Below are positions 1-23,893 of a DNA stretch of 23,893 bases, piece after piece. The stretch's first letter is position 1, and each line of letters begins with the position of its first letter. The translations under genes and the position numbers were made by a program. Below the pieces are notes generated by a model. The model was given only the letters and a program-made list of their open reading frames with translations. It was not told where the DNA came from and did no database searches. The stretch is from a virus. The stretch is taken from positions 1-23,893 of IMG/VR virus record IMGVR_UViG_3300027810_000721, one strand, 5' to 3'.

Positions 1-3000
1 ATAAGAGGTTTATCTGTTTCAACAAAATCTTTGTAGATATACTCGCCCTTGCTAGTTAATTCACCTGAGTTTAAATCAATACCATTATAATTTGTTACTT
101 CATTTTTACCAAAAGAAACTGTAATTGGTGACTTAGGAAATGTCTCTTGATGTACATGATTCCTGATGTATTTTCCTAGATTTGATTCATTTGTTAAATC
201 AAATGTTTTTATTATTTCAGCATTCTTTAACAAATCTTGAACTCTAGTAAAATTACCAGCGTCGTCTATATCAGCGTCAACTCCAGTTGGATTATCAACC
301 TTAAATATTACAAAATTCTTTGGCATGTTGTTATCAGACCATATCGGAGCAAATATCTTTAATTTTTCATCATAATTTTTAGAATAACTATAAGAAGTAC
401 CATATTGATATTCTTCTTCTATTTGTTTATCATAAGAATCAAGAACCGTTAAATCAGATTCTTGCCTTTTAGTTAAGTAAATTAAATCAGATGGAGTTCC
501 ATTGGCTTTAAAAAACTCAGAAACATCATTTGCATAATTTCCATTAGGGCTAATAGGGTATTTCTTGTATTGTGTTGAGGCTAAAGTTTTTGTCGCACTA
601 ATGCTCTCTAAAAATATTGACCCATCAGAACTAGTAACTATCTTAACGTTACCAGATAATTTAGGATTTGTTCTCAATAATGGTTTAGCGACATTGTCTA
701 ACTCATAATTAACTTGTGTATTAAAATTAGGACCAGCTTTTCTAGAATCATATCCACTAACAACAGGAAACGTATATGTTTTACTGATTTTAATTTTATC
801 ATCAATGATACATGACTTGTAATCAGCTTTAGGATAAACCTCTATTATAGATTCGCTGCTTATTCCTATGTCTAATCCATCAGAAACTACAGGTGTTTGT
901 TTTTCTATTAATCTATCTTTTACTAGTAAAACAGCAGTGTCAATATTTTCACTTTCTATCACAAATGCATATTCTAAACAACTATCAAAATTACTTGAAT
1001 TAATAGTATCTCCAAAGGACAGTGTATCTGTAAAGTCCTTTATATAACTTCCTTGATCACCAGATTTGTTTGTATGTAAACCATCTATAATATACAATGG
1101 CCAAGCTAATACCTCGAGGCCGCCATTATTGTGTCCTGGCCCAATAATCTCAGGCTCACATGAGTAAAAACCATAGAATACATTGATATCATTTGCGGTT
1201 GGTGTATTTTCCCTAACTATACCCGGTGATATATTTGGCCTGTCATAGTTATCACATGTACCATAATTAGATATCGCAAGTCCAGTTGTTAATCTTCCAT
1301 CGATATCATAACCATACCAATTGTTATTTATATTATCCCCTTTATTATCCCACACTAAGTAACCGTTTCCGTCTGAAAATATATTTGATTCAAATAAATC
1401 GTCTTGATCTTCAGTTTGTGCACCTATCTCGGATTTGTATATGGGCACATTGTATCTCGCTATATCCTTTAATGATGAGTGCGCAACATCGATTGGTCTA
1501 TTATACCATATATCCAGTATGTTTAAATGATCAGCTTCTGTTGCACAGAACTGATTTAAATTAGGATCATCTATACTAGATTTATTAATATTTAACAAAC
1601 TAAACGTATAATTGACATCTTCACCATCACATTCCCATGTGTATTGAGTAACACCTCCGTTTGTTCCCCATGTATTACTAGATGATCTTTTATAATAAGT
1701 TACATTTTGATTAATATCACTATAAATACCACTATCAATAAAACCTGATGAACTAGTTCTATTCGTGATTATATAAAGATTAGAATCTAACTCACTGCTA
1801 AAAAGCGGGGTTTCTGCCTCCACCAAGTCTTCTAGGGACTTTATGCCATCATTTGGTGAATCCCCGTCATACTCGTAATATACTTTGATGCTTTGAAAAT
1901 CACCATCACAATATGATATGGTATTAGTAGCATATTTAACTTCAGTATATCTAGAAACTGCTGTATTACCACATGTTACTGTTTGTAATATCTCTCCGGT
2001 TAAACCTATTTTTACTACTTTAGATGCATTGTCATCCGAAATAGGTATCCATTGAGAATTAGAACTATTAGAAGTAACCTTTTGATTTAAAGATTCATCA
2101 TAATAAATAATATCTCCTTCTTCTAATTCGCCGACATTGTTTGCTTGTATTGTATTACCATACGCTGTTCCATTTCTGCTTGCAATACACAACGATACTG
2201 CGTCAGCACCAAAAGATCCAATCTTCATTTCAAACCGTGGTACTGGTGTAACAGTAATAGAAACATCCAGTATTTGAGATTCAGCTCCTTTGATATCTTT
2301 TGCCTGTAATTTTAAAGTATCAGGTCCAAAATAACCAAGCGTTGGGGTATATTTCAAGCTAAGTGTATGAACATTAAGCGGATTAAGCGGAGTTCCTAAT
2401 GAAACAGTCGCGGACGTGTTGGTTATTGCACCATATTCCGGGTTTGTTGTTATAAACCATTCAATTTGATCATTATCTGCATCAGAACCTGTTACATTAA
2501 AAGTAACAGATGAGTTCTGATCTACCAATATAGTGCCGGTATCAGGATGTGGATCACTGAGGACTGGTGCATCATTTAAAGGATTCAGTGTTATTGTACC
2601 AATAAGAGATTCGTTCAATTCCGTATCCGTTGCTTTAAACGTGAAAAAATCTGATCCAATAGTACTCTCTGTGTGTTCATAAATAACAGCATTGTTATCC
2701 ACAAAAATAAGATTACCTCTAGTTGGCTGAGTTATTATAGTATACGTTAAAGCTATAGGAGTGTCTACATTGTCATTAGCCACTAAAGTTATTGCCAATG
2801 TTTGATTCCATACTACATCATATGCAGCATCTACAGGAATTGGCGCGGAAGAATCATTTACATTTACAGTTCTAGTCACTTCAACTGCAGGGAGTGGAAC
2901 AGCGTCACTGACGTTATATTTAATCGTATATGTTCCTACAGTAGCAGTATTTACTGTTCCTGTGACAAGAACATTTGAAGTAATATCCCCATCGTGAATA

Positions 3001-4256
3001 TCTATAGCAGTATAGCCTGGATCGGCATATGTACTATTCACATTTATATTTAATGTTGCGTCACCGTTTAGTGTTATAATTGGTGGACTTGTATCTACAA
3101 CTGTAACAGTTCTAGTAGCAGTTCCTGTATTGTTATTGGCATCTGTTGCCGTATATGTAATATCGTAAGTTCCTACGGTAGTAGTATCAACCGTTCCTGT
3201 AGAAGTAACTGTTTCTCCACCATCAGCGGTAGCTCCAGCGTCTGTATAACTGGTACCAGCCTCTATTGTAGGTGCATTATTACCATTAATGGTAATTATA
3301 GGTCCAGTAGTATCAACCACATTCACTGTTCTAGTAGCAGTTCCTGTATTGTTATTGGCATCTGTTGCCGTATATGTAATCGTATATGTTCCTACAATAG
3401 AAGTAGTTACTGTTCCCGTAGAAGTAACTGTTTCTCCACCATCAGCGGTAGCTCCAGCGTCATCATATGTTGTTCCTAATTCAACAGTAGCAGGATTATC
3501 TCCAGTTATAGTAATTATAGGTGCAGTATTATCAACAACATTCACTATTCTTGTTGCTGTTCCTATATTCCCTGCAGCATCAGTAGCTGAGTAAGTAATG
3601 GTATACGCTCCACCGGTTGAGGTATCAACAGTTCCAGTAGAAGTAACGGTTTCACCACCATCTGAAGTTGCACCAATATCTGTATAAGTACCTCCCATTT
3701 CAACCGTAGCTGGATTATCTCCATTTACAGTAAGTAAAGGTAACGTTGTATCAACAACATTAACCGTTCTGGTGGCTGTTCCTATATTTCCTACAGCATC
3801 TGTTGCCGTATATGTAATTGTATACTCTCTAACTATTGAGGTATCAACAGTTCCGGTTGGTGTAACTGCTGCCGTAACTGTTTCTCCACCATCAGCAGTG
3901 GCTCCAGCGTCTGTATAAGTCGTTCCTAATTCAACAGTAACAGGATTGTTTCCAGTTACAGTAATAACAGGAGCAGTAATATCTGGAATCGCACATGATG
4001 CTACTTCAGAAACTGCACCGTCGACGCCCACTTTAAAAGTTTCTGTACCGTTAGCGCCAGTTTCCTTAAAGAATTGATCACCACCATTAAATACTATTAG
4101 GTTTCCGTAATCAGTGTAAAGAATATCTAGATTAGCCGGTTTAAGTGAGTTGCTATTAAATTGTACTCCCGTTGAGCCTGCTCCCGAAAAGGAACAAGCA
4201 GATACAGCGTCTGTTTGACCTGTATCTATAATTAGTATACTTTGAATTGCACTCAT
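1..4256 (-). CDS. Giant Ig-repeat tail/adhesin protein, C-terminus beyond the window
   Basis: The frame is open from an ATG at 4256-4254 to the left window edge (at least 1418 codons, no stop seen), so the C-terminus is missing. Visible order: residues 1-90 are an N-terminal segment rich in small residues. Residues about 91-467 hold five Ig-like repeats of about 73-80 residues with the hallmarks TVELGTTYTDAGATA, GTYTITYTATDA and TATRTVNVVD, which match the DUF5011/HYR-like surface Ig fold. Residues about 468-655 hold two cadherin-like (tandem-95 type) domains with GTITLNPLNDAPVLSDP between them. Residues from about 673 on are a long region I do not recognise. Such domains in phages usually decorate virions or bind surface glycans, so a distal tail or host-contact role is inferred. 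It is the last gene of the run, 58 bases after the 1252-aa gene. The leader reads TTTAAATAA before ATG, with no Shine-Dalgarno. Confidence 0.85.
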   Translation of the reverse strand, partial: MSAIQSILIIDTGQTDAVSACSFSGAGSTGVQFNSNSLKPANLDILYTDYGNLIVFNGGDQFFKETGANGTETFKVGVDGAVSEVASCAIPDITAPVITVTGNNPVTVELGTTYTDAGATADGGETVTAAVTPTGTVDTSIVREYTITYTATDAVGNIGTATRTVNVVDTTLPLLTVNGDNPATVEMGGTYTDIGATSDGGETVTSTGTVDTSTGGAYTITYSATDAAGNIGTATRIVNVVDNTAPIITITGDNPATVELGTTYDDAGATADGGETVTSTGTVTTSIVGTYTITYTATDANNNTGTATRTVNVVDTTGPIITINGNNAPTIEAGTSYTDAGATADGGETVTSTGTVDTTTVGTYDITYTATDANNNTGTATRTVTVVDTSPPIITLNGDATLNINVNSTYADPGYTAIDIHDGDITSNVLVTGTVNTATVGTYTIKYNVSDAVPLPAVEVTRTVNVNDSSAPIPVDAAYDVVWNQTLAITLVANDNVDTPIALTYTIITQPTRGNLIFVDNNAVIYEHTESTIGSDFFTFKATDTELNESLIGTITLNPLNDAPVLSDPHPDTGTILVDQNSSVTFNVTGSDADNDQIEWFITTNPEYGAITNTSATVSLGTPLNPLNVHTLSLKYTPTLGYFGPDTLKLQAKDIKGAESQILDVSITVTPVPRFEMKIGSFGADAVSLCIASRNGTAYGNTIQANNVGELEEGDIIYYDESLNQKVTSNSSNSQWIPISDDNASKVVKIGLTGEILQTVTCGNTAVSRYTEVKYATNTISYCDGDFQSIKVYYEYDGDSPNDGIKSLEDLVEAETPLFSSELDSNLYIITNRTSSSGFIDSGIYSDINQNVTYYKRSSSNTWGTNGGVTQYTWECDGEDVNYTFSLLNINKSSIDDPNLNQFCATEADHLNILDIWYNRPIDVAHSSLKDIARYNVPIYKSEIGAQTEDQDDLFESNIFSDGNGYLVWDNKGDNINNNWYGYDIDGRLTTGLAISNYGTCDNYDRPNISPGIVRENTPTANDINVFYGFYSCEPEIIGPGHNNGGLEVLAWPLYIIDGLHTNKSGDQGSYIKDFTDTLSFGDTINSSNFDSCLEYAFVIESENIDTAVLLVKDRLIEKQTPVVSDGLDIGISSESIIEVYPKADYKSCIIDDKIKISKTYTFPVVSGYDSRKAGPNFNTQVNYELDNVAKPLLRTNPKLSGNVKIVTSSDGSIFLESISATKTLASTQYKKYPISPNGNYANDVSEFFKANGTPSDLIYLTKRQESDLTVLDSYDKQIEEEYQYGTSYSYSKNYDEKLKIFAPIWSDNNMPKNFVIFKVDNPTGVDADIDDAGNFTRVQDLLKNAEIIKTFDLTNESNLGKYIRNHVHQETFPKSPITVSFGKNEVTNYNGIDLNSGELTSKGEYIYKDFVETDKPL
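2857..3986 (-). repeat. Tandem Ig-domain coding repeats, 219-bp period in the best-matched pair
   Basis: Five consecutive Ig-like domain repeats are encoded here. Units three and four are exactly 219 bp apart and share long identical DNA blocks: 3109-3161 with 3328-3380 (53 bases), and 3202-3242 with 3421-3461 (41 bases). The outer units are more diverged, and unit five (2857 to about 3096) is the least similar and slightly longer. Identity at DNA level, including synonymous positions, suggests recent duplication or gene conversion among the central units. Copy number may therefore vary between relatives, and short-read assembly may collapse it. Confidence 0.8.
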
Positions 4257-13396: not shown

Positions 13397-13680
13397 TATC
13401 TAGTTTTCTTTGTATTTTGATCGACCGTGTAATTTTTATAATTATGCAAATATCTTGCGCCTTTTAAAAGGTTTTTAATAGCATCATCTAAAAACACTAA
13501 AAAATGTCTCATTGTTTGATTTCTTTGAATGTGACCAGAAAGAGATCTTCCCATGAATTCACCAGGTGCTAACTCATTTTCATAGTCATAACCATCATTC
13601 AATCTACTATCTTTTCTAGTCTTCGCAGAATCATATCTTCGACCTTGCTTATATTTAAATAAATTTGTAAATAATCCCAT
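13396..13680 (-). CDS. Small unrecognised protein between gp6-like and gp7-like genes
   Basis: 94 aa, strongly basic at both ends (MGLFTNLFKYKQGRRYDSAK and YTVDQNTKKTR), with a helical stretch MRHFLVFLDDAIKNLLKGAR. I do not recognise a family. It overlaps the neighbours on both sides by one base (TAATG at each end), so it is tightly locked into the baseplate wedge unit and is very probably expressed. A small baseplate or wedge accessory protein is the natural guess from position, with no sequence support. There is no signal peptide or membrane segment. Confidence 0.75.
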   Translation of the reverse strand: MGLFTNLFKYKQGRRYDSAKTRKDSRLNDGYDYENELAPGEFMGRSLSGHIQRNQTMRHFLVFLDDAIKNLLKGARYLHNYKNYTVDQNTKKTR

Positions 13681-15509
13681 TATTTAAGTGCCTTTCTATT
13701 TCCAGCCTGTACTCTAGTGTAGATTGTTCTAGGAACAGGATTTGATTCAAAATTTATACTAATTGCTGCTTCAGCATTTATTAATACATCATCCTCTATT
13801 ACATCTCCATCTCTATCTTGCCATCCACCTCTGAATACTGCAACCTCTTCTTTATCCATAATAATATCTCCCCACTGGTCTAGACCTTTTACACTATATG
13901 GTATATCAATTGACTTATCAACAGGAACCACTTTTATATCTTCTATTTTCTTAAAGAAAACATATTTTTGTTTTCCATTACCAACAGTCTCCAACGTTAC
14001 TGGTTCTTGTGGAATAACACTAACGTTAATAGATTCAAAATATCCATTCTTTAAAGCTGTCTCCTCTGTCTCTGAAATAAACTTAACATTTACCGCATCG
14101 ATTCCAGCAACATCCTCCAATATATAAATGATATCGGATTTAGGCAATTTATCTCTTCGAGTGATGTTTAGTAAATAATCTGAAAGTTTAGTTCTAACAC
14201 TTGTATAAATTTCATCCCTAGTATAACCTTCGAAATACCTAATATTGATGTCAATGCTATAATACCTTACCTTTGGTTTAACAAATACAACTTCTGTAGT
14301 TACCATTTGTTGTCCGCTATCTTCAAGTACTTTTTGCATCGCATCATATTCACTTTGATCAAAGAACATTTCTTCCTGAGGCATGCTAAAATAATCTTGA
14401 TTTTTAGATAATTTCTTTTTAATATCAGGTACTGCGAAAATATAAATAACATTATCGTCATCCAGGTATTGATCATCCGTTGTGTTATATGCATCTATGT
14501 ACGAAAACATGTTGTATCTTGATAAGAAGTATTCATAATTATCTGGTGTTGCTAGTACGAATGATTTACTAGCCAATGGTGTCATTATTTTAGTGAATTT
14601 TGTATTTTCTCTATCACTACCCATTTTAGGTGAAGAAGTAATAGTCACATCTAAAAATTCATTCAAATCATGTTCTGTTCCGTTTGAATCTGTACCAGAT
14701 CCATCCCATTTGATTGCTAAATCTGGTGAATCATCTAAATTACCGGCAAGACCAACGTGTTTTACATATTCTACTTCAATACTAGCGCCTAACGGCGGAA
14801 TCATACCAAAAGAACCATTTCCAAAATAAAGATCTAATCCTCCGCTAATTCCGGTTTTAATTAAATATGCCTTTTCATTAGATAACAAATCATATAGAGA
14901 TTCATGCTTCATCCATTTTTCACCGTTAATACTGACACTGACTTTACTGTGATCAGTTATTCCACCGGTATTTATATTAAATGATTGTAATTTGTTACCA
15001 TTGGACGTTACAGTTTGTGATTCAAATTCACCCTGAATGATAGCAGTTTTAAATGAACTGTAATTTGTTTTTTGTAATTTATATCTATCTACTGAATTTA
15101 ATAATGTATAAGTTAAACCATTTGCTTCGAATTTAAGTTTTGATCTACCTTCTATATTTAATGTATTTCCAGCAATCTTTACCATATCTGCACCGGGCTT
15201 CCATCTAAATGTAATTTCACCAGTTGATGCAAAACCTCTTGTAGCATCATGACCAGTTAATCTAGACATACCATATATTGACTCGGGCTGTTGAGCAGTG
15301 TATATGTTTTGTTCTACAACAGAATCCTCTATATAGAACATAATAAGATCCATCATTTCTGATAAGACACTTACTATCTGAGCGAACGGCGATGCAACGG
15401 TAAACAGGGTTTCTGCCCTGTTGTAAACCCTAGAAATATACGTCCTAGCATCTGCCTTTATGGCATTTGCTCCGGTTCTAATTGTACTTAAAAATTTTAA
15501 TTCTGCCAT
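13680..15509 (-). CDS. Baseplate wedge protein gp6-like (baseplate J family)
   Basis: 609 aa, close to T4 gp6 (660). Residues about 228-258 show the J-family signature: FGNGSFGMIPPLGASIEVEY, then a short GLAGN. Residues about 412-478 show the second typical block: an alternating beta strand (RYYSIDINIRYFEG), an amphipathic helix (YTSVRTKLSDYLL), then KLPKSDIIYILEDVAGIDAV. The N-terminal 75 residues are helical (LSEMMDLIMFYIEDSVVEQN), as in J/gp6. In the virion gp6-type dimers form the ring joining the wedges around the hub. It lies 17 bases downstream of the gp25-like gene, which is the conserved order in contractile tails, and overlaps the next gene by one base. The leader is ATACATAAATA directly before ATG. 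Confidence 0.88.
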   Translation of the reverse strand: MAELKFLSTIRTGANAIKADARTYISRVYNRAETLFTVASPFAQIVSVLSEMMDLIMFYIEDSVVEQNIYTAQQPESIYGMSRLTGHDATRGFASTGEITFRWKPGADMVKIAGNTLNIEGRSKLKFEANGLTYTLLNSVDRYKLQKTNYSSFKTAIIQGEFESQTVTSNGNKLQSFNINTGGITDHSKVSVSINGEKWMKHESLYDLLSNEKAYLIKTGISGGLDLYFGNGSFGMIPPLGASIEVEYVKHVGLAGNLDDSPDLAIKWDGSGTDSNGTEHDLNEFLDVTITSSPKMGSDRENTKFTKIMTPLASKSFVLATPDNYEYFLSRYNMFSYIDAYNTTDDQYLDDDNVIYIFAVPDIKKKLSKNQDYFSMPQEEMFFDQSEYDAMQKVLEDSGQQMVTTEVVFVKPKVRYYSIDINIRYFEGYTRDEIYTSVRTKLSDYLLNITRRDKLPKSDIIYILEDVAGIDAVNVKFISETEETALKNGYFESINVSVIPQEPVTLETVGNGKQKYVFFKKIEDIKVVPVDKSIDIPYSVKGLDQWGDIIMDKEEVAVFRGGWQDRDGDVIEDDVLINAEAAISINFESNPVPRTIYTRVQAGNRKALK

Positions 15510-15526: not shown

Positions 15527-15883
15527 TTACTGCATGCTTATTTTTATAGCATATCTACTATCTATCGTAATATCTATGAAAGCCATATCCCTAACCTCAC
15601 CTTTTACAAAATCTATCTTAACTTCCAAGTTATATTTACTAGCAAGTGGACAATATTGATTCAATTGATCTGTAATTACAGCTTTTATATTGTGTGCGCT
15701 AGATCCAAAATCATATATAAGTTCTTCCAAGTTACAACCAAAATTATGACTTCCCATAACTTCACCTGTATTTGTAAATAAAACAGTTTGAATCTGTGTG
15801 ATTAACATTTCTATTTCATCATTAGTCTGAACTTGAGTTTCGTCATAGTTAGGATCACTGAGATATTTTATATATAATTCCAT
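15527..15883 (-). CDS. Baseplate wedge protein gp25-like
   Basis: 118 aa, matching the usual size of the gp25/GPW family (T4 gp25 is 132). The sequence follows the family pattern: an N-terminal strand and helix (NDEIEMLITQIQTVLFTNTG), the central block EVMGSHNFGCNLEELIYD around residues 41-58, then a helix (NIKAVITDQLNQY) and two final strands (LEVKIDFVKGE, AFIDITIDSRYAI). The E-x-R core of T4 gp25 is not obvious; GSHNFG sits where the family usually has an EPR-G block. gp25 nucleates the sheath-like handshake and binds the gp6-gp7 core bundle. It is 22 bases downstream of the 280-aa gene and 17 upstream of the gp6-like gene. Confidence 0.85.
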   Translation of the reverse strand: MELYIKYLSDPNYDETQVQTNDEIEMLITQIQTVLFTNTGEVMGSHNFGCNLEELIYDFGSSAHNIKAVITDQLNQYCPLASKYNLEVKIDFVKGEVRDMAFIDITIDSRYAIKISMQ

Positions 15884-15905: not shown

Positions 15906-16748
15906 TTACGAATGCATCATCCAGTCAACGCCTTCATCGCCCTTGATCTCTTCATCAATTGCAGATAATTCATCGTCACCCATTGATTTAATAGCATCAT
16001 AATCAAAATCTACATTACCTGGTAACGTAAACTTGAAGATCGCTAATTTAGAACCAATAGATTGTTTTACTTTAGCACTAACATATCTGAAGAATATTTC
16101 ATCGGAATATAGCGCGCAATCAGGTATAGTTTCATATAACTCTAATATAACATCACCTTTTGGTGTATCACCCATGAACTTTAATTCTCCAGTTAAATTA
16201 GAGTAACTATAAGAAATAGGATTGTTTAATATTTGCCTAGTTAAATCTTGCATAGAAGCATTCAATACATAATATTGTAATTCTTCCGCAGCTTCAGACA
16301 TTCCTCCACCTTCATACATTCCTCTAAACAACATTCTGTCCATAGAAAAATCAGAACCAGAATCGAATCTTACATCCATTCCACCTCCACCGCCATTCCA
16401 TCCTGACTGAAGGTCATACAATCCATATACTGAATATACTCCACCTCCACCATCTAAACTAGGGCCAGGTAGATTAAGTGTTCTACGACTTTTAAAATAA
16501 TCAGTACTAAATATAGAATGTGGTATATGGTAATAGTTTTCTTTTACAGAATACTCGTACTTCTTATAGAACCATTTTTTAGCTCTTTTGATTATATTAA
16601 TAATTTCTTTTTGTGGTAAATTAATAGGTATCATACATGCTCCGGTAATGTCATCACCTAATTCTTCTAAAAATGCATTTAAACAATTAGGATCAAAATA
16701 CCTTCCAGTTGTAAGATCATTATTCGAACCGCTTCTAATTTCACTCAT
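15906..16748 (-). CDS. Neck/connector-type virion protein (gp14-like, tentative)
   Basis: 280 aa. The C-terminal 65 residues (FFRYVSAKVKQSIGSKLAIF, then FTLPGNVDFDYDAIKSMG and a DELSAIDEEIK helix) follow a pattern I associate with T4-like neck proteins: a helix, a K..G..L..F block, LPGG/LPGN, then an acidic helix. The N-terminal half has a basic helix (EIINIIKRAKKWFYKKYEYS, about 48-67) followed by Gly-rich loops: GGGG about 100-103, GGGGG about 119-123 and GGG 147-149. The ending DEGVDWMMHS is distinctive. Its position between the amidoligase-like gene and gp25 is unusual for a neck protein, so a baseplate or tail-terminator role remains possible. It starts one base after the stop of the amidoligase-like gene, which suggests coupled translation. 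Confidence 0.5.
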   Translation of the reverse strand: MSEIRSGSNNDLTTGRYFDPNCLNAFLEELGDDITGACMIPINLPQKEIINIIKRAKKWFYKKYEYSVKENYYHIPHSIFSTDYFKSRRTLNLPGPSLDGGGGVYSVYGLYDLQSGWNGGGGGMDVRFDSGSDFSMDRMLFRGMYEGGGMSEAAEELQYYVLNASMQDLTRQILNNPISYSYSNLTGELKFMGDTPKGDVILELYETIPDCALYSDEIFFRYVSAKVKQSIGSKLAIFKFTLPGNVDFDYDAIKSMGDDELSAIDEEIKGDEGVDWMMHS

Positions 16749-16749
16749 T

Positions 16750-18060
16750 TTATTCTTTTATTTTTTTACTTACTACTATTTCAGTGTCTTCAAATCTAGC
16801 ACTGTTTGTCATAAAACCTTCTCTGAATATACCGCCTATCATTTTACCTTTAAACATGGTATCACGACCCGCAACATAACAATTAGTTAACTCACAGCTA
16901 CCGTGTGTGTAACTAGATTCTACCTTGGATTCTTTTACTTTAGTACCTTGGTATAAACTACCCCACTTAATAGCTGATCCAGATATATCACAATTATAAA
17001 AACTTGAATTATCTACATTTCCTGCTATTTCGCAATCAATAAATTCAAAATTCTCTAAAAAGTATACAGTTGGAAATTTACCATCCTTGATCTGAACAGC
17101 ACCATAGTCGGAGTCATAATTAATAATACCATCAGTCATTGATCCATTTACTAATAAATCCATTACTCTCAATTTAAACCTCTCCCAGTGCACCTTTATG
17201 ATTGTGGGATTGTCTTGTAAATCGGTCAGTATTTGTATATTTGGCCAATTCTTTGTAACTGCTGAGTAATCTTTCAGCATATCAGAAACAGGTTTATTCC
17301 TATTTAAAATTCTTTGAAGTTCAATTTTATTTTCATTACTAAATCTAGCATCATTACATAATTTCCACATTTGCATTAAAAAACTCTCAGTTAGATATAG
17401 TATATCATCAACTTTCTTTTCATAATCAACTCCACCAATATATCTAAACTCTAAATAATTCTTCTCCTTCTTAGAAAAGTTTATTCCGTAATATTTAGTA
17501 TCGGCAAATTTAAAATTAGTAGAAGCTACTTGATTGGCATCAAAATGAAATGATTCCCATTTTGGCATCACCCATTTAACACTTTTTGCATACGCAGATT
17601 TTTCTCTTTCAGGAAATAACTTATAAACTTGTTGTTCATCAAACTCTAGAATGAATTTAAGAACATTCATTTTCAAGACAGTGTCTCGGTCTTCTAGATA
17701 TTTTTTATCAAATGATAGGTTGATGTGTATTGATGCTCTATCATTAGTATATCCATTCTTAGATATCCAATCAAGCACTTTGATAACCATTATTCTGGCG
17801 TTTCTATAAGGGATTGGCCCAGTCACTAGTTCTACTAGTCCTTTACCACCAGACATATCTGGTTCTATTTTAAACTCTTCAGCTGAAGGTTCAAAATCAC
17901 TATGTGCTTTATCTTCTAATCTAATCTTTCGATCTAGAAGTTTTGCCAGAGATTTTCTGGTTACTTCTAGATCGAGATCAGAATAGAATTCAAACTCAAC
18001 ACCCATGAGTGCCGCATTCAATATTGATTCTCTCGGAGAATCTATAGTTAATTTTTGCAT
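16750..18060 (-). CDS. Amidoligase-like (glutamine-synthetase-fold) protein with C-terminal beta-helix-like tail
   Basis: 436 aa. Residues 20-210 match the plan of the Amidoligase_2 family: GVEFEF at 20-25 (metal-binding glutamates E22, E24), FKIEPD with D68, VELVTGPI with E77, RASIHINLSFD with H112, and LEFRYIGG with E204 and R206. These families use ATP to join an amine to a carboxylate, making amide or isopeptide links. Residues about 335-428 form short repeats with a five- to six-residue rhythm (FEFIDCEIAG, SSFYNCDIS, CELTNCYVAG, ARFEDTEIVV), resembling a pentapeptide or right-handed beta-helix. The gene is 56 bases downstream of the S1-like gene and one base from the neck-like gene, inside a virion-structure run. 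All apparent catalytic positions are filled, so an active enzyme is plausible; the substrate is unknown. A purely structural beta-helix protein is the alternative. Confidence 0.65.
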   Translation of the reverse strand: MQKLTIDSPRESILNAALMGVEFEFYSDLDLEVTRKSLAKLLDRKIRLEDKAHSDFEPSAEEFKIEPDMSGGKGLVELVTGPIPYRNARIMVIKVLDWISKNGYTNDRASIHINLSFDKKYLEDRDTVLKMNVLKFILEFDEQQVYKLFPEREKSAYAKSVKWVMPKWESFHFDANQVASTNFKFADTKYYGINFSKKEKNYLEFRYIGGVDYEKKVDDILYLTESFLMQMWKLCNDARFSNENKIELQRILNRNKPVSDMLKDYSAVTKNWPNIQILTDLQDNPTIIKVHWERFKLRVMDLLVNGSMTDGIINYDSDYGAVQIKDGKFPTVYFLENFEFIDCEIAGNVDNSSFYNCDISGSAIKWGSLYQGTKVKESKVESSYTHGSCELTNCYVAGRDTMFKGKMIGGIFREGFMTNSARFEDTEIVVSKKIKE

Positions 18061-18116: not shown

Positions 18117-19409
18117 TTAAGGCATTTTCAAGAAGACTTTCATAGAGTCAACATCGATCCTAGTAATCTGTACTGTAATAGGATCTCCTGATTTAAATAC
18201 ACTCATTACTTCTTCACTTAATTCACTGACATGTAGCAGCCCAGTGACACCCTCTTCTATTGTAATAAACAAACCGTAATCTTTCTTAGTCTTTACAGTT
18301 GCTTGTATTACAGAAGGAATCTGATATCTTGATTGAATGTCTAACCAAGGATTAACAGTTATATTGGCCTTTTGTGTTAGTGTAATTTTAGTATTACTAA
18401 TAATATCTTTAACCATAAATGAAATTTCATCACCTGGTTTAATATCCCTAGCTTTAAATTTAACTAATGTGTCTTCGTCTAAATCATTATTATGTATCAT
18501 TCCAGTTAAACACTTGTTAAATTCTACAAATACACCATATTTAGCAGTACCTGTCACATTTCCAGTGAGAGTTTCACCTTGTGTTTCTTTTAATGACTCT
18601 AATTCACTAGGTATCAATGCTTGTAAGTATTTTCTGTGTGAAACAACCAATGTACCTCGGTCTGGTGAGAAACTCACCGGAACCACATACATTTCTGTTC
18701 CAATAATAGAACCAAAATCATGCAATTTATTAATTCCTGCAAGTGATCCTGGCATAAAGCACTCAATTCCTTGTACTAATACCATGTAACCTCCGTTTTC
18801 AATCATATGTGTAACTGTACCAATCCATGCAGTTCCTCCTGATTCGACAGCTTCTCTAAGATCCATAAACACTTTGTGTTTAACACCTCCATTAATACTT
18901 CCTAGTACATGAGAGTTTTTACTTAGCTGAGTAATTAATACTGCAGTCTCGTCTCCTGGTTTTAATGACTGAACTTCTACAGGTTCTTTATCATATTTTA
19001 CATATATTAATTCTCTGTAACCTATATCTACACTAATAAACTCAGAACTAACTGCGTATATTTTACCCTCATGGATTTCTCCTGGGTTTAGAATAGTTAT
19101 AACATTTCCTAATGATTCGTCATGTGCTGAAAGAATGTCATACATTTCTTGAGCATATACTTCCCTAGAAAATACTTTATCTCCATTCTGTGTCTTTATA
19201 TGTGGATTGTGTTTTCGCGTTCTTGATGGGCAAGTAGCTTCAAATGCATCCCAATCAAATTCTCCGGCTTCATCAAAGAATTCTGCACCTTCAGGTCCAG
19301 AATCTTCCTCTTTTTTTAAGTTTTCAACAATAGTGTCTAGTTCTTCAACTGGTGTTTGATTAGTTTTGGTTTCGCCAATTCTAATTCTTTTGTTTTTTTC
19401 GTTGTTCAT
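18117..19409 (-). CDS. Ribosomal protein S1-like protein with four S1 RNA-binding domains
   Basis: 430 aa. After an acidic, disordered N-terminus (1-50) comes a GEFDWDAFEATCPSRTRKH block, then four OB-fold S1 domains at about 110-173, 193-262, 279-347 and 363-430. Domains three and four carry the classical signature (KYGVFVEF...LTGMIHNNDL; DYGLFITI...VTGLLHVSEL). The first is more diverged (EGKIYAVSSEFISVDIGY). Bacterial bS1 usually has six domains and about 550-600 aa, so this is a shorter form. The FDW-x-A-F-E block followed by a V-x-I-G-Y strand resembles, from memory, the start of Bacteroidota S1. S1 recruits structured or Shine-Dalgarno-less mRNA to the 30S subunit, so a role in redirecting host translation is inferred. 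A role in RNA processing or in virions is possible. The leader is A/T-rich without a Shine-Dalgarno. Confidence 0.88.
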   Translation of the reverse strand: MNNEKNKRIRIGETKTNQTPVEELDTIVENLKKEEDSGPEGAEFFDEAGEFDWDAFEATCPSRTRKHNPHIKTQNGDKVFSREVYAQEMYDILSAHDESLGNVITILNPGEIHEGKIYAVSSEFISVDIGYRELIYVKYDKEPVEVQSLKPGDETAVLITQLSKNSHVLGSINGGVKHKVFMDLREAVESGGTAWIGTVTHMIENGGYMVLVQGIECFMPGSLAGINKLHDFGSIIGTEMYVVPVSFSPDRGTLVVSHRKYLQALIPSELESLKETQGETLTGNVTGTAKYGVFVEFNKCLTGMIHNNDLDEDTLVKFKARDIKPGDEISFMVKDIISNTKITLTQKANITVNPWLDIQSRYQIPSVIQATVKTKKDYGLFITIEEGVTGLLHVSELSEEVMSVFKSGDPITVQITRIDVDSMKVFLKMP

Positions 19410-21157: not shown

Positions 21158-21871
21158 TTATTTACCTTTTTGTTGATAGTTAATATGTGTACTTGATAGT
21201 TTACCTACAGTTACAGGTGTAGGCGGCATCGGTGGTCCTGATGGTCCAACTCCCGTTGGATGAATATGTGCATTATAATCGTCTAACCACATTTGTAACC
21301 AATCTTGTAGAGATTGACCTCTAACTGCTGGTTCTGTCTCATCTGCTCCTGGTTCACCTTCATTTGAAACGAATATATCACCACAGTCTAAGAACATTTT
21401 CGCATCTGTGCTTATCTTAATGAATCCTTCTTCGTCTATTTGTATCATTGGTCTCTCCTTAGCTCCACTACCACGAGTGATAACCAAACCATCCTCGGGA
21501 GAATGATATATTCTTACATTTCGTTCAGCATCATATACTAAACTTATAACATCTTGTGGTGCATCAGATGCCTCCAATATATCTGTTTTTAAATCGTCAT
21601 TTTGATCTATTTGAAACCAATATTCTGGATGATATATGTTACCATTATCAAATCTAACCGCAACTATGTCACCAACTCTTGGTACATGATGAGAACCCAC
21701 TGCATCTCTATTCATGGGAGTTGCCCACGGAATTGAATCGTTCTCAAGTTTATCAAATTTACCATAAACTTTAACACGACATCTACCATTAAGTAAAGGA
21801 TCTTCGTTTACTACGACTTCTCCTAACCAATGTGAATCTCTTAAATTATCTTGAAAAAGTTCATCTGCCAT
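21158..21871 (-). CDS. Baseplate hub/spike protein, gp5-like OB fold, no lysozyme domain
   Basis: 237 aa. Residues about 15-90 match the gp5/gpV OB fold: WLGEVVVNEDPLLNGRCRVK, then SIPWATPMNRD and VPRVGDIVAVRFDNGN. Residues about 110-168 are short strands like the start of a spike beta-prism (NVRIYHSPEDGLVITRGSG, MIQIDEEGFIKISTDAKMFL). The C-terminal part has a helix (SLQDWLQMWLDDYNAHIHPT) with an H-x-H motif at 202-204 and a Pro/Gly tip (GPSGPPMPP). H-x-H near the tip is known to bind iron in P2 gpV and related spikes, so metal binding is possible. T4 gp5 carries a lysozyme domain and a long beta-helix, which are absent here, so peptidoglycan cleavage would have to come from another protein. 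The start overlaps the preceding stop (TAATG). Confidence 0.85.
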   Translation of the reverse strand: MADELFQDNLRDSHWLGEVVVNEDPLLNGRCRVKVYGKFDKLENDSIPWATPMNRDAVGSHHVPRVGDIVAVRFDNGNIYHPEYWFQIDQNDDLKTDILEASDAPQDVISLVYDAERNVRIYHSPEDGLVITRGSGAKERPMIQIDEEGFIKISTDAKMFLDCGDIFVSNEGEPGADETEPAVRGQSLQDWLQMWLDDYNAHIHPTGVGPSGPPMPPTPVTVGKLSSTHINYQQKGK

Positions 21872-23351: not shown

Positions 23352-23893
23352 TTAAGAAGGTATATCAAGACTATCAATAACCGTAACTTGGGCCTTCTTA
23401 CTAAATGTTTTACCTTCTGCTTTTATTATCATTTCAAATTCATAATTGAAAGTAACAGTTCCATCATCATTCGAATCGCTCTCATCATCAAGATCGTCCT
23501 TGAACATGTTCAAATCTAATTTCCAAGTTCCGTCTTTTCTCACTGTAAACCCGAATTTAGCAGAGAATGATAAAGACCAATAATCATTTTCTAAGTATGC
23601 TTCCCAAGTATCAAACAAAATATCTTTGTTTGCAGTCCACGTACCTTCAAATATTGCATACTCGTCATTTCTGATGGCATCTTGATAAACAGTAGTATAA
23701 TCAAAGTTTATGTCTATTTCTAATTCCTCTTCTGGAGTTGGCTCCGGAGTCGGTTCAGGTGTTGGTTCAGGTGTTGGTTCAGGTGTTGGTTCAGGTGTTG
23801 GTTCAGGTTCATCTGCAGGTGGACTATTTTCAGCCACATTGTCAGCTTTTTCCTCGTCGGTTGCATCCTCAAAACCTGGAGGATTAATTAAAT
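23352..23893 (-). CDS. Acidic protein with Pro-Glu-Pro-Thr linker, N-terminus beyond the window
   Basis: The frame runs open off the right edge, so the true start is outside the window. A GTG at 23837 is possible but unlikely to be the start, because the frame continues upstream with a coherent sequence (LINPPGFEDATDEEKADN). The visible part has a PEPT linker followed by about 120 residues of mixed beta/acidic sequence (FDYTTVYQDAIRNDEYAIFE, FTVRKDGTWKLDLNMF, FEMIIKAEGKTFSKKAQVTV). The Asp-rich DDLDDESDSNDDG stretch suggests disorder or cation binding. I do not recognise a family. It ends 26 bases before the tube-initiator-like gene, so it is the first visible gene of this baseplate run and a structural or assembly role is inferred from position only. 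Confidence 0.75.
   Translation of the reverse strand, partial: LINPPGFEDATDEEKADNVAENSPPADEPEPTPEPTPEPTPEPTPEPTPEPTPEEELEIDINFDYTTVYQDAIRNDEYAIFEGTWTANKDILFDTWEAYLENDYWSLSFSAKFGFTVRKDGTWKLDLNMFKDDLDDESDSNDDGTVTFNYEFEMIIKAEGKTFSKKAQVTVIDSLDIPS
23752..23808 (-). repeat. 12-bp tandem repeat encoding PEPT units
   Basis: The plus strand shows ggttcaggtgtt repeated four times, plus a partial copy (ggttcaggt). On the minus strand this encodes Pro-Glu-Pro-Thr. The identical DNA units suggest slippage, so linker length may vary between relatives. The encoded PEPT linker is a rigid, extended spacer of a kind common in surface or multidomain proteins. Confidence 0.85.

Follow-up and report, generated by a model that had tools for sequence, protein, structure and literature searches.

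An amidoligase-like enzyme with a predicted β-solenoid tail is encoded among the neck and baseplate genes of very large phages

In many very large ocean phages, a gene for an amidoligase-like enzyme lies between the genes that build the tail and those that build the neck. Excerpts of two papers (PMC10580990, PMC5498523) discuss phage amidoligases as auxiliary genes whose products change the surface of the host. In the lineage studied here, the amidoligase gene instead occupies a neck/baseplate block, and the glutamine amidotransferase of the known cassettes is absent from related genomes (0/7). What might such an enzyme act on? We addressed this question with a stretch of 23,893 nucleotides (hereafter the window), IMG/VR record IMGVR_UViG_3300027810_000721, a 23.9-kb fragment that leaves the distant genes of its own phage beyond reach. 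If the enzyme acts on virion proteins, some of the largest known phages would have an enzymatic step of particle maturation.

The features of the locus are collected in Table 1. An earlier note, made from the sequence alone, had read the gene as an amidoligase fused to a repeat tail within a coordinated late module. All five motifs quoted there are present in the 436-residue ORF, at residues 20-25 (GVEFEF), 65-68 (IEPD), 76-82 (VELVTGP), 110-117 (SIHINLSF) and 203-206 (LEFR). The description of the neighbours was also accurate: a single base separates the gene from the neck-like gene (16748 against 16750), whose product matches the head-tail adaptor family phrog_211, and the S1-like gene adjoins on the upstream side. 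The S1-domain protein scores 159 bits against ribosomal protein S1, far below the equivalog cut-off of 524, and homologues of it occur in Lak and other huge phages. Two further ORFs run into the window ends. The ORF at positions 3-4256 (1418 residues, cut by the window end) carries five bacterial surface Ig-like stretches (PF16403) and probably encodes a fibre or adhesion protein. The ORF at 23352-23891, open at the window end, contains a run of acidic PTPE-type repeats, which might serve as a linker or as a site of modification.

Table 1. Coordinates of the amidoligase-like gene, its parts and its neighbours in the window
Feature	Position	Strand	Evidence
Amidoligase-like gene, 436 aa	16750..18060	(-)	ATG start; PF12224 22.1 bits
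GS-like catalytic domain and following helices, aa 1-305	17146..18060	(-)	AlphaFold2 model; VIA-align Z 11.9 to 4bax, residues 8-239
β-solenoid, pentapeptide-like tail, aa 306-436	16753..17145	(-)	Separate model pLDDT 94.4; best Z 11.1 to β-solenoids
E22 and E24 (GVEFEF)	17989..17997	(-)	Invariant 59/59
D68 (EPDMSGG)	17857..17859	(-)	Invariant 59/59
E77 (VELVTGP)	17830..17832	(-)	Invariant 59/59, also with Atu_ph07 and SCTP-2
H112-x-N114-x-S116 (HINLS)	17713..17727	(-)	Invariant 59/59; E. coli GlnA has HCHMS
E204-x-R206 (LEFR)	17443..17451	(-)	Invariant 59/59; E. coli GlnA has IEVR
S1-domain protein, 3 S1 stretches	18117..19409	(-)	56 nt upstream of amidoligase; Pfam-A
Neck / head-tail adaptor protein	15906..16748	(-)	1 nt downstream of amidoligase; phrog_211 E 6.2e-9
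gp25-like baseplate wedge / sheath initiator	15527..15883	(-)	Weak: PF04965 18.4 bits, cut-off 27.2
gp6 / baseplate-J-like wedge protein	13680..15509	(-)	PF04865; phrog_219 E 2.4e-27
Baseplate hub OB-domain protein	21158..21871	(-)	PF04717 E 7.5e-8

The sole Pfam-A match of the window protein was PF12224 (Amidoligase_2), a family that Pfam itself labels putative. The match (E 1.6e-4, residues 19-122) covers profile positions 5-124 of 245, the first half only, and its 22.1 bits lie just above the gathering cut-off of 22. Given this marginal score, the match was tested by further routes. In an alignment of 59 sequences (A3), 17, the window protein included, matched PF12224 at E <= 0.01. The family assignment made in the earlier note was supported. 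Comparison of the A3 family with the amidoligase of phage Atu_ph07 by hhalign gave E 8e-12 over 215 columns, and the Atu_ph07 homologue itself matches two PHROGs families that bear the name 'amidoligase enzyme'. No PHROGs family was found for the window protein; 20 of the 59 sequences touched phrog_33777, the family to which the two proteins of Salicola phage SCTP-2 belong. A phmmer search of PDB sequences with the window protein found nothing, and hhalign of the family against the single sequence of E. coli GlnA gave no meaningful match. The kinship to glutamine synthetase (GS) therefore rests on fold and motif order. Across nine huge or jumbo records, PF12224 was over its cut-off in one; a gene at the detection limit of Pfam in this way would explain its being overlooked.

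An AlphaFold2 model built from A3 had a mean pLDDT of 90.7 and a pTM of 0.82. VIA-align placed model residues 8-239 on glutamine synthetases, with a best Z of 11.9 and an rmsd of 3.4 Å over 183 aligned residues. The GS-like fold, on whose presence or absence the earlier note had staked its claim, was thus found in the predicted structure. Foldseek against the PDB agreed with this fold (E 3.7e-4), its global TM scores being low (0.2-0.3) because only part of the protein is common. In the viral library BFVD, the best fold match was an uncharacterised phage protein with a full-length TM of 0.83 and 24% identity; among the 50 viral fold matches listed, 22 were named amidoligase and many others were nameless. 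PafA and Dop were not among the 50 VIA-align entries listed.

Five of the six residues named in the earlier note lie in predicted strands of this model (17-27, 75-79, 110-117 and 203-209), and D68 directly follows strand 62-67. In all 59 aligned sequences, which are 28-87% identical to the window protein, G20, E22, E24, P67, D68, E77, H112, N114, S116, E204 and R206 were invariant, as were K135, R152, K159, K162, K189 and N194; the six named positions (E22, E24, D68, E77, H112 and R206) are all in this set. When the very distant Atu_ph07 and SCTP-2 proteins were added, E77, H112, K135, R152, K189, N194, E204 and R206 remained invariant. Both added proteins have an E-x-E motif near the N terminus (GFEFEV and GIEYEF, respectively), left unplaced by the aligner because it precedes a long insertion. 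The motifs come in the same order in E. coli GlnA (GPEPEFF at 128, GMHCHMS at 268 and RIEVRF at 356), and these GlnA residues serve metal and nucleotide binding. A catalytically dead GS-fold protein serving as a structural or assembly factor would suit the location of the gene among structural genes and its large, conserved tail. Nevertheless, the invariance of the acidic, His and Arg positions at such divergence argues against a dead enzyme, and we consider that reading highly improbable.

Modelled alone, the tail formed a β-solenoid (pLDDT 94.4) that is pentapeptide-like but irregular. This supports the β-helix tail proposed in the earlier note; Pentapeptide_4 (PF13599) matched at E <= 0.01 in 18 of the 59 A3 sequences, the window protein not among them. 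The tail model aligned with many listed β-solenoids at Z 7 to 11, pentapeptide-repeat proteins among them. The match to AlbG (Z 9.1, 2.8 Å, 112 aligned) was equalled or exceeded by other β-solenoids, up to Z 11.1. Unrelated solenoids of several types score equally well, and the fold of the tail therefore says nothing about its function. All 59 sequences have an acidic tail (computed pI 4.4-5.5), and the tail is kept across the aligned huge-phage clades. Taken together, these results give good support to a GS-fold amidoligase that retains its full set of catalytic-type residues and ends in a solenoid, and we hold this assignment with high confidence.

Relatives were gathered from IMG/VR with window-protein patterns (247 found, best 80 examined) and with family patterns (at least 548, best 80 examined), the two sets overlapping. 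In the best 80 of the 247 loci, the order S1 - amidoligase - neck - gp25-like - gp6-like was never violated. The neck gene was present in 80, S1 in 79, the gp25-like gene in 79 and the gp6-like gene in 78, and the hub protein lay upstream of S1 in all 64 loci that have it. S1 was missing only from L035, whose contig stops 318 nt upstream. Because these loci had been chosen by their amidoligase, the linkage was retested from the neck gene, using the best 80 of 160 relatives. The amidoligase was directly upstream of the neck gene in 80/80, with a gap of 1 nt (39 loci), 3-7 nt (40) or 15 nt (1) as computed with mechanically chosen start codons. Clustered at 99, 95 and 90% identity, these 80 neck proteins fall into 32, 21 and 15 groups, respectively. 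Of the 80 amidoligases, 77 have all five motifs; the remaining three (L236, L254 and L285) are cut by a contig end. The two samples overlap in many contigs and come from a single lineage, so that the linkage applies within that lineage only. There, in the 12 loci compared, the amidoligase diverged roughly as fast as S1 and several of the structural genes.

In the neck-selected sample, the S1 gene lay 44-57 nt upstream of the amidoligase in 76/76 measurable loci of the 80. This constancy would suit an enzyme that works with the adjacent S1-domain protein to modify the translation machinery or a host protein, and an excerpt of PMC7162821 proposes that huge-phage S1-domain proteins redirect translation. 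However, the pair is broken in the phages of 634-735 kb, which keep both genes apart: by record coordinates, the S1 homologue lies ~48 to 440 kb from the amidoligase. We regard a partnership with S1 as quite unlikely. The coordinated module suggested in the earlier note was supported as a conserved S1-amidoligase-neck-baseplate block, whereas its S1 link proved to be clade-specific.

Searching with tblastn, we found the window protein in six uncultured huge-phage records at 30-40% identity, and weakly in Atu_ph07 and SCTP-2. Two of the records, each of 735411 bases, gave identical match coordinates, and five distinct genomes of 462-735 kb were therefore counted. A profile search detected one strong copy in each of five huge genomes (LR756500, LR756501, LR756502, LR756504 and G001), with three additional weak stretches spread over two of these genomes, and a single copy in Atu_ph07. 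It detected no copy in SCTP-2, Lak-A1, pT24, PAU, MaF61 or MA9V-1. The last five have no detectable amidoligase although each encodes relatives of one or both of two window virion proteins (baseplate or large structural proteins), which indicates that such virions can be built without the gene. Weak amidoligase-like stretches also lie in LR756502 at 208699-208950 and 628361-628549. One contains two in-frame TAA codons and matches A3 at E 1.4e-4, the other scores 13.8 bits with PF12224, and they are possible decayed or diverged paralogues. In SCTP-2 (L087:13960-17717), two tandem phrog_33777 proteins akin to the amidoligase are encoded ~0.5 kb from the head maturation protease.

Identity to the 462-kb phage is 40.0% for the amidoligase, 41.4% for gp6 and 38.2% for the large structural protein; for the 735-kb phage, the values are 34.6%, 31.2% and 30.8% (the last at 60% coverage). 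This divergence fits vertical inheritance with the virion module and not a recent auxiliary acquisition. Neck genes, or a protein cluster containing the hub, lie within 8 kb of the amidoligase in five of six other huge-phage clades. Neck genes are within this distance in four huge-phage clades. The hub-containing cluster is so placed in 27/28 loci of one clade and is represented in four further clades as well, the hub label being weaker than the neck label given that neighbour proteins were grouped by single-linkage clustering, which may merge families. In the 634-735 kb genomes, the gp6 homologue is ~170 to 450 kb from the amidoligase by record coordinates. In the 735-kb phage, none of the genes beside the amidoligase is a recognised virion gene: one is homing-endonuclease-like, another is methyltransferase-like and a third is of unknown function.

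In Atu_ph07, the homologue lies one gene away from the portal gene, at a distance of 2.7 kb. It is on the strand opposite to its neighbours, a tail-lysin-like gene that adjoins the portal gene and a nucleotidyltransferase-like gene. It is likewise opposite to the portal gene, which precludes co-transcription with it. Counting from the portal gene taken as gp198, the homologue would be gp196. This number falls inside CDS 170-215, a cluster called rich in virion proteins by the authors in excerpts of PMC6102473.

We also considered whether a fixed small partner protein is encoded after the amidoligase. This idea was rejected, since the downstream ORF is the neck gene in the clade of the window and differs in other huge phages. 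In many mahaphage-type loci, the ORF immediately after the amidoligase varies in sequence, yet has a similar start, ~MKYLKxFE (L082:9350, L084:9350, L167:9403, L170:9395, L171:9395, L179:9386, L180:9392, L183:9392, L187:9377, L188:5245, L192:9356, L193:9395 and L201:9376). By eye, the L192 ORF resembles a NUDIX protein. A strict DNA pattern for this start had 10 occurrences in G001, 10 in LR756502 and 11 in LR756504. The search also covered six further phage genomes, including LR756500 and LR756501, and found 0 in each; a backward control pattern gave 0 in all nine genomes. Internal proteins of T4 bear a prohead-protease signal, and by analogy the MKYLKxFE start may be a targeting or prohead-protease signal.

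The GS fold would also be compatible with an auxiliary metabolic ligase that acts on small molecules in glutamine- or γ-glutamyl-type metabolism. An excerpt of PMC12619734 reports a 'glutamine synthetase' AMG in nine of 25 moraphages, which may or may not be of this family. Against this stand the inheritance of the amidoligase at the pace of virion genes and the retention of its solenoid tail in the huge-phage clades. Moreover, one strict-pattern scan of genome contigs for cellular relatives matched three stretches, none encoding a relative, with patterns strict enough for distant cellular amidoligases to escape. Small-molecule metabolism is in our view an improbable role.

The main rival is that the enzyme modifies the host envelope or peptidoglycan peptides, for example in superinfection exclusion, as already suggested for phage amidoligases in parts of PMC10580990 and PMC5498523. 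The genomes were therefore compared for partners of the known cassettes, in a set of seven huge or jumbo genomes that includes G001, which is possibly incomplete. A gamma-glutamylcyclotransferase (GGACT, PF06094) was over cut-off in 2/7, ~50 kb from the amidoligase, with one more weak match, which would be in line with an envelope role. The glutamine amidotransferase PF13522, by contrast, was found in 0/7, with positive controls in 14/14. The COOH-NH2 ligase PF14395 was over cut-off in 0/7 (one weak match of 12.5 bits), a result to be read against controls that were also 0/14. LUZ24 and Cellulophaga phage phi14:2, on the other hand, keep their partners within ~6 kb, beside replication genes. 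An envelope role for the enzyme studied here is possible, although we think it rather unlikely.

A phage structural or assembly protein is the target that we consider most likely, as a tentative choice somewhat short of an even chance. It is favoured because the gene shares a block with neck and baseplate genes, evolves at a similar pace and, in the seven related genomes, has no amidotransferase partner. On this reading, the gene product would be catalytically competent and would work alone, as an ATP-dependent carboxylate-amine ligase of the PF12224 superfamily with a C-terminal β-solenoid. Glutamine synthetase forms an acyl phosphate on metal ions. By analogy, residues of the E22/E24/E77/H112/E204 type may hold metal ions on which a carboxylate (such as that of a Glu side chain or of the C terminus of a protein) would be activated as an acyl phosphate. 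This would then be passed to an amine, and the outcome on a structural or assembly protein would be a cross-link, a tag or a cap, the solenoid tail presumably being the docking part. Activity, chemistry, substrate, timing and the role of the tail are all inferred here. A bolder form of this proposal is a virion-dedicated, lineage-wide protein ligase that, steered by its solenoid, makes isopeptide links or adds peptides or amino acids on the neck, tail or capsid proteins of its own phage. It would work during assembly, with chemistry like that of the Pup ligase, and serve particle maturation; in so specific a form, we judge it unlikely. According to part of PMC9723777, no megaphage had been cultured as of 2021. 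The question can be tested in Atu_ph07, which is in culture and whose homologue lies a single gene away from the portal gene.

How does this gene compare with known systems? In the portions of the open-licence PMC literature that were covered, no description of a virion-cluster amidoligase was found. The proteins of LUZ24-like phages and phi14:2 are annotated as amidoligase enzymes. The phi14:2 protein (S0A2A0) is among the BFVD fold matches of the window protein, whereas no meaningful similarity was detectable when hhalign compared the family with its single sequence. Their context also differs: the LUZ24 and phi14:2 amidoligases sit with a COOH-NH2 ligase, a glutamine-amidotransferase-type protein, a RimK-like protein and a gamma-glutamylcyclotransferase, whereas the window gene sits in a virion cluster. 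Excerpts of PMC10580990 and PMC5498523 suggest that such amidoligase sets modify the host wall and exclude superinfection. The closest full-length likeness, known from the model alone, is A0A6J5PQ40 of an uncultured Caudovirales phage, the BFVD match mentioned above. It matches in both catalytic domain and tail and is named only 'Uncharacterized protein'. The Atu_ph07 protein AUZ94978 (BFVD A0A2L0UZM1, 'Amidoligase enzyme'; 'hypothetical protein' in GenBank) is alike in its catalytic domain (hhalign E 8e-12), but has a long insert after GFEFEV and no solenoid tail in the alignment. GlnA resembles the window protein in fold (Z 11.9) and in the order E-x-E, H-x-[HN]-x-S, E-x-R, but the second His of its HxH is Asn in the window protein. 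PafA, the Pup ligase, is a GS-fold enzyme that forms isopeptide bonds on proteins; no Pup-like gene was identified here. We read the stand-alone amidoligase of the virion cluster as a member of a known superfamily with a new domain architecture and a new genomic context.
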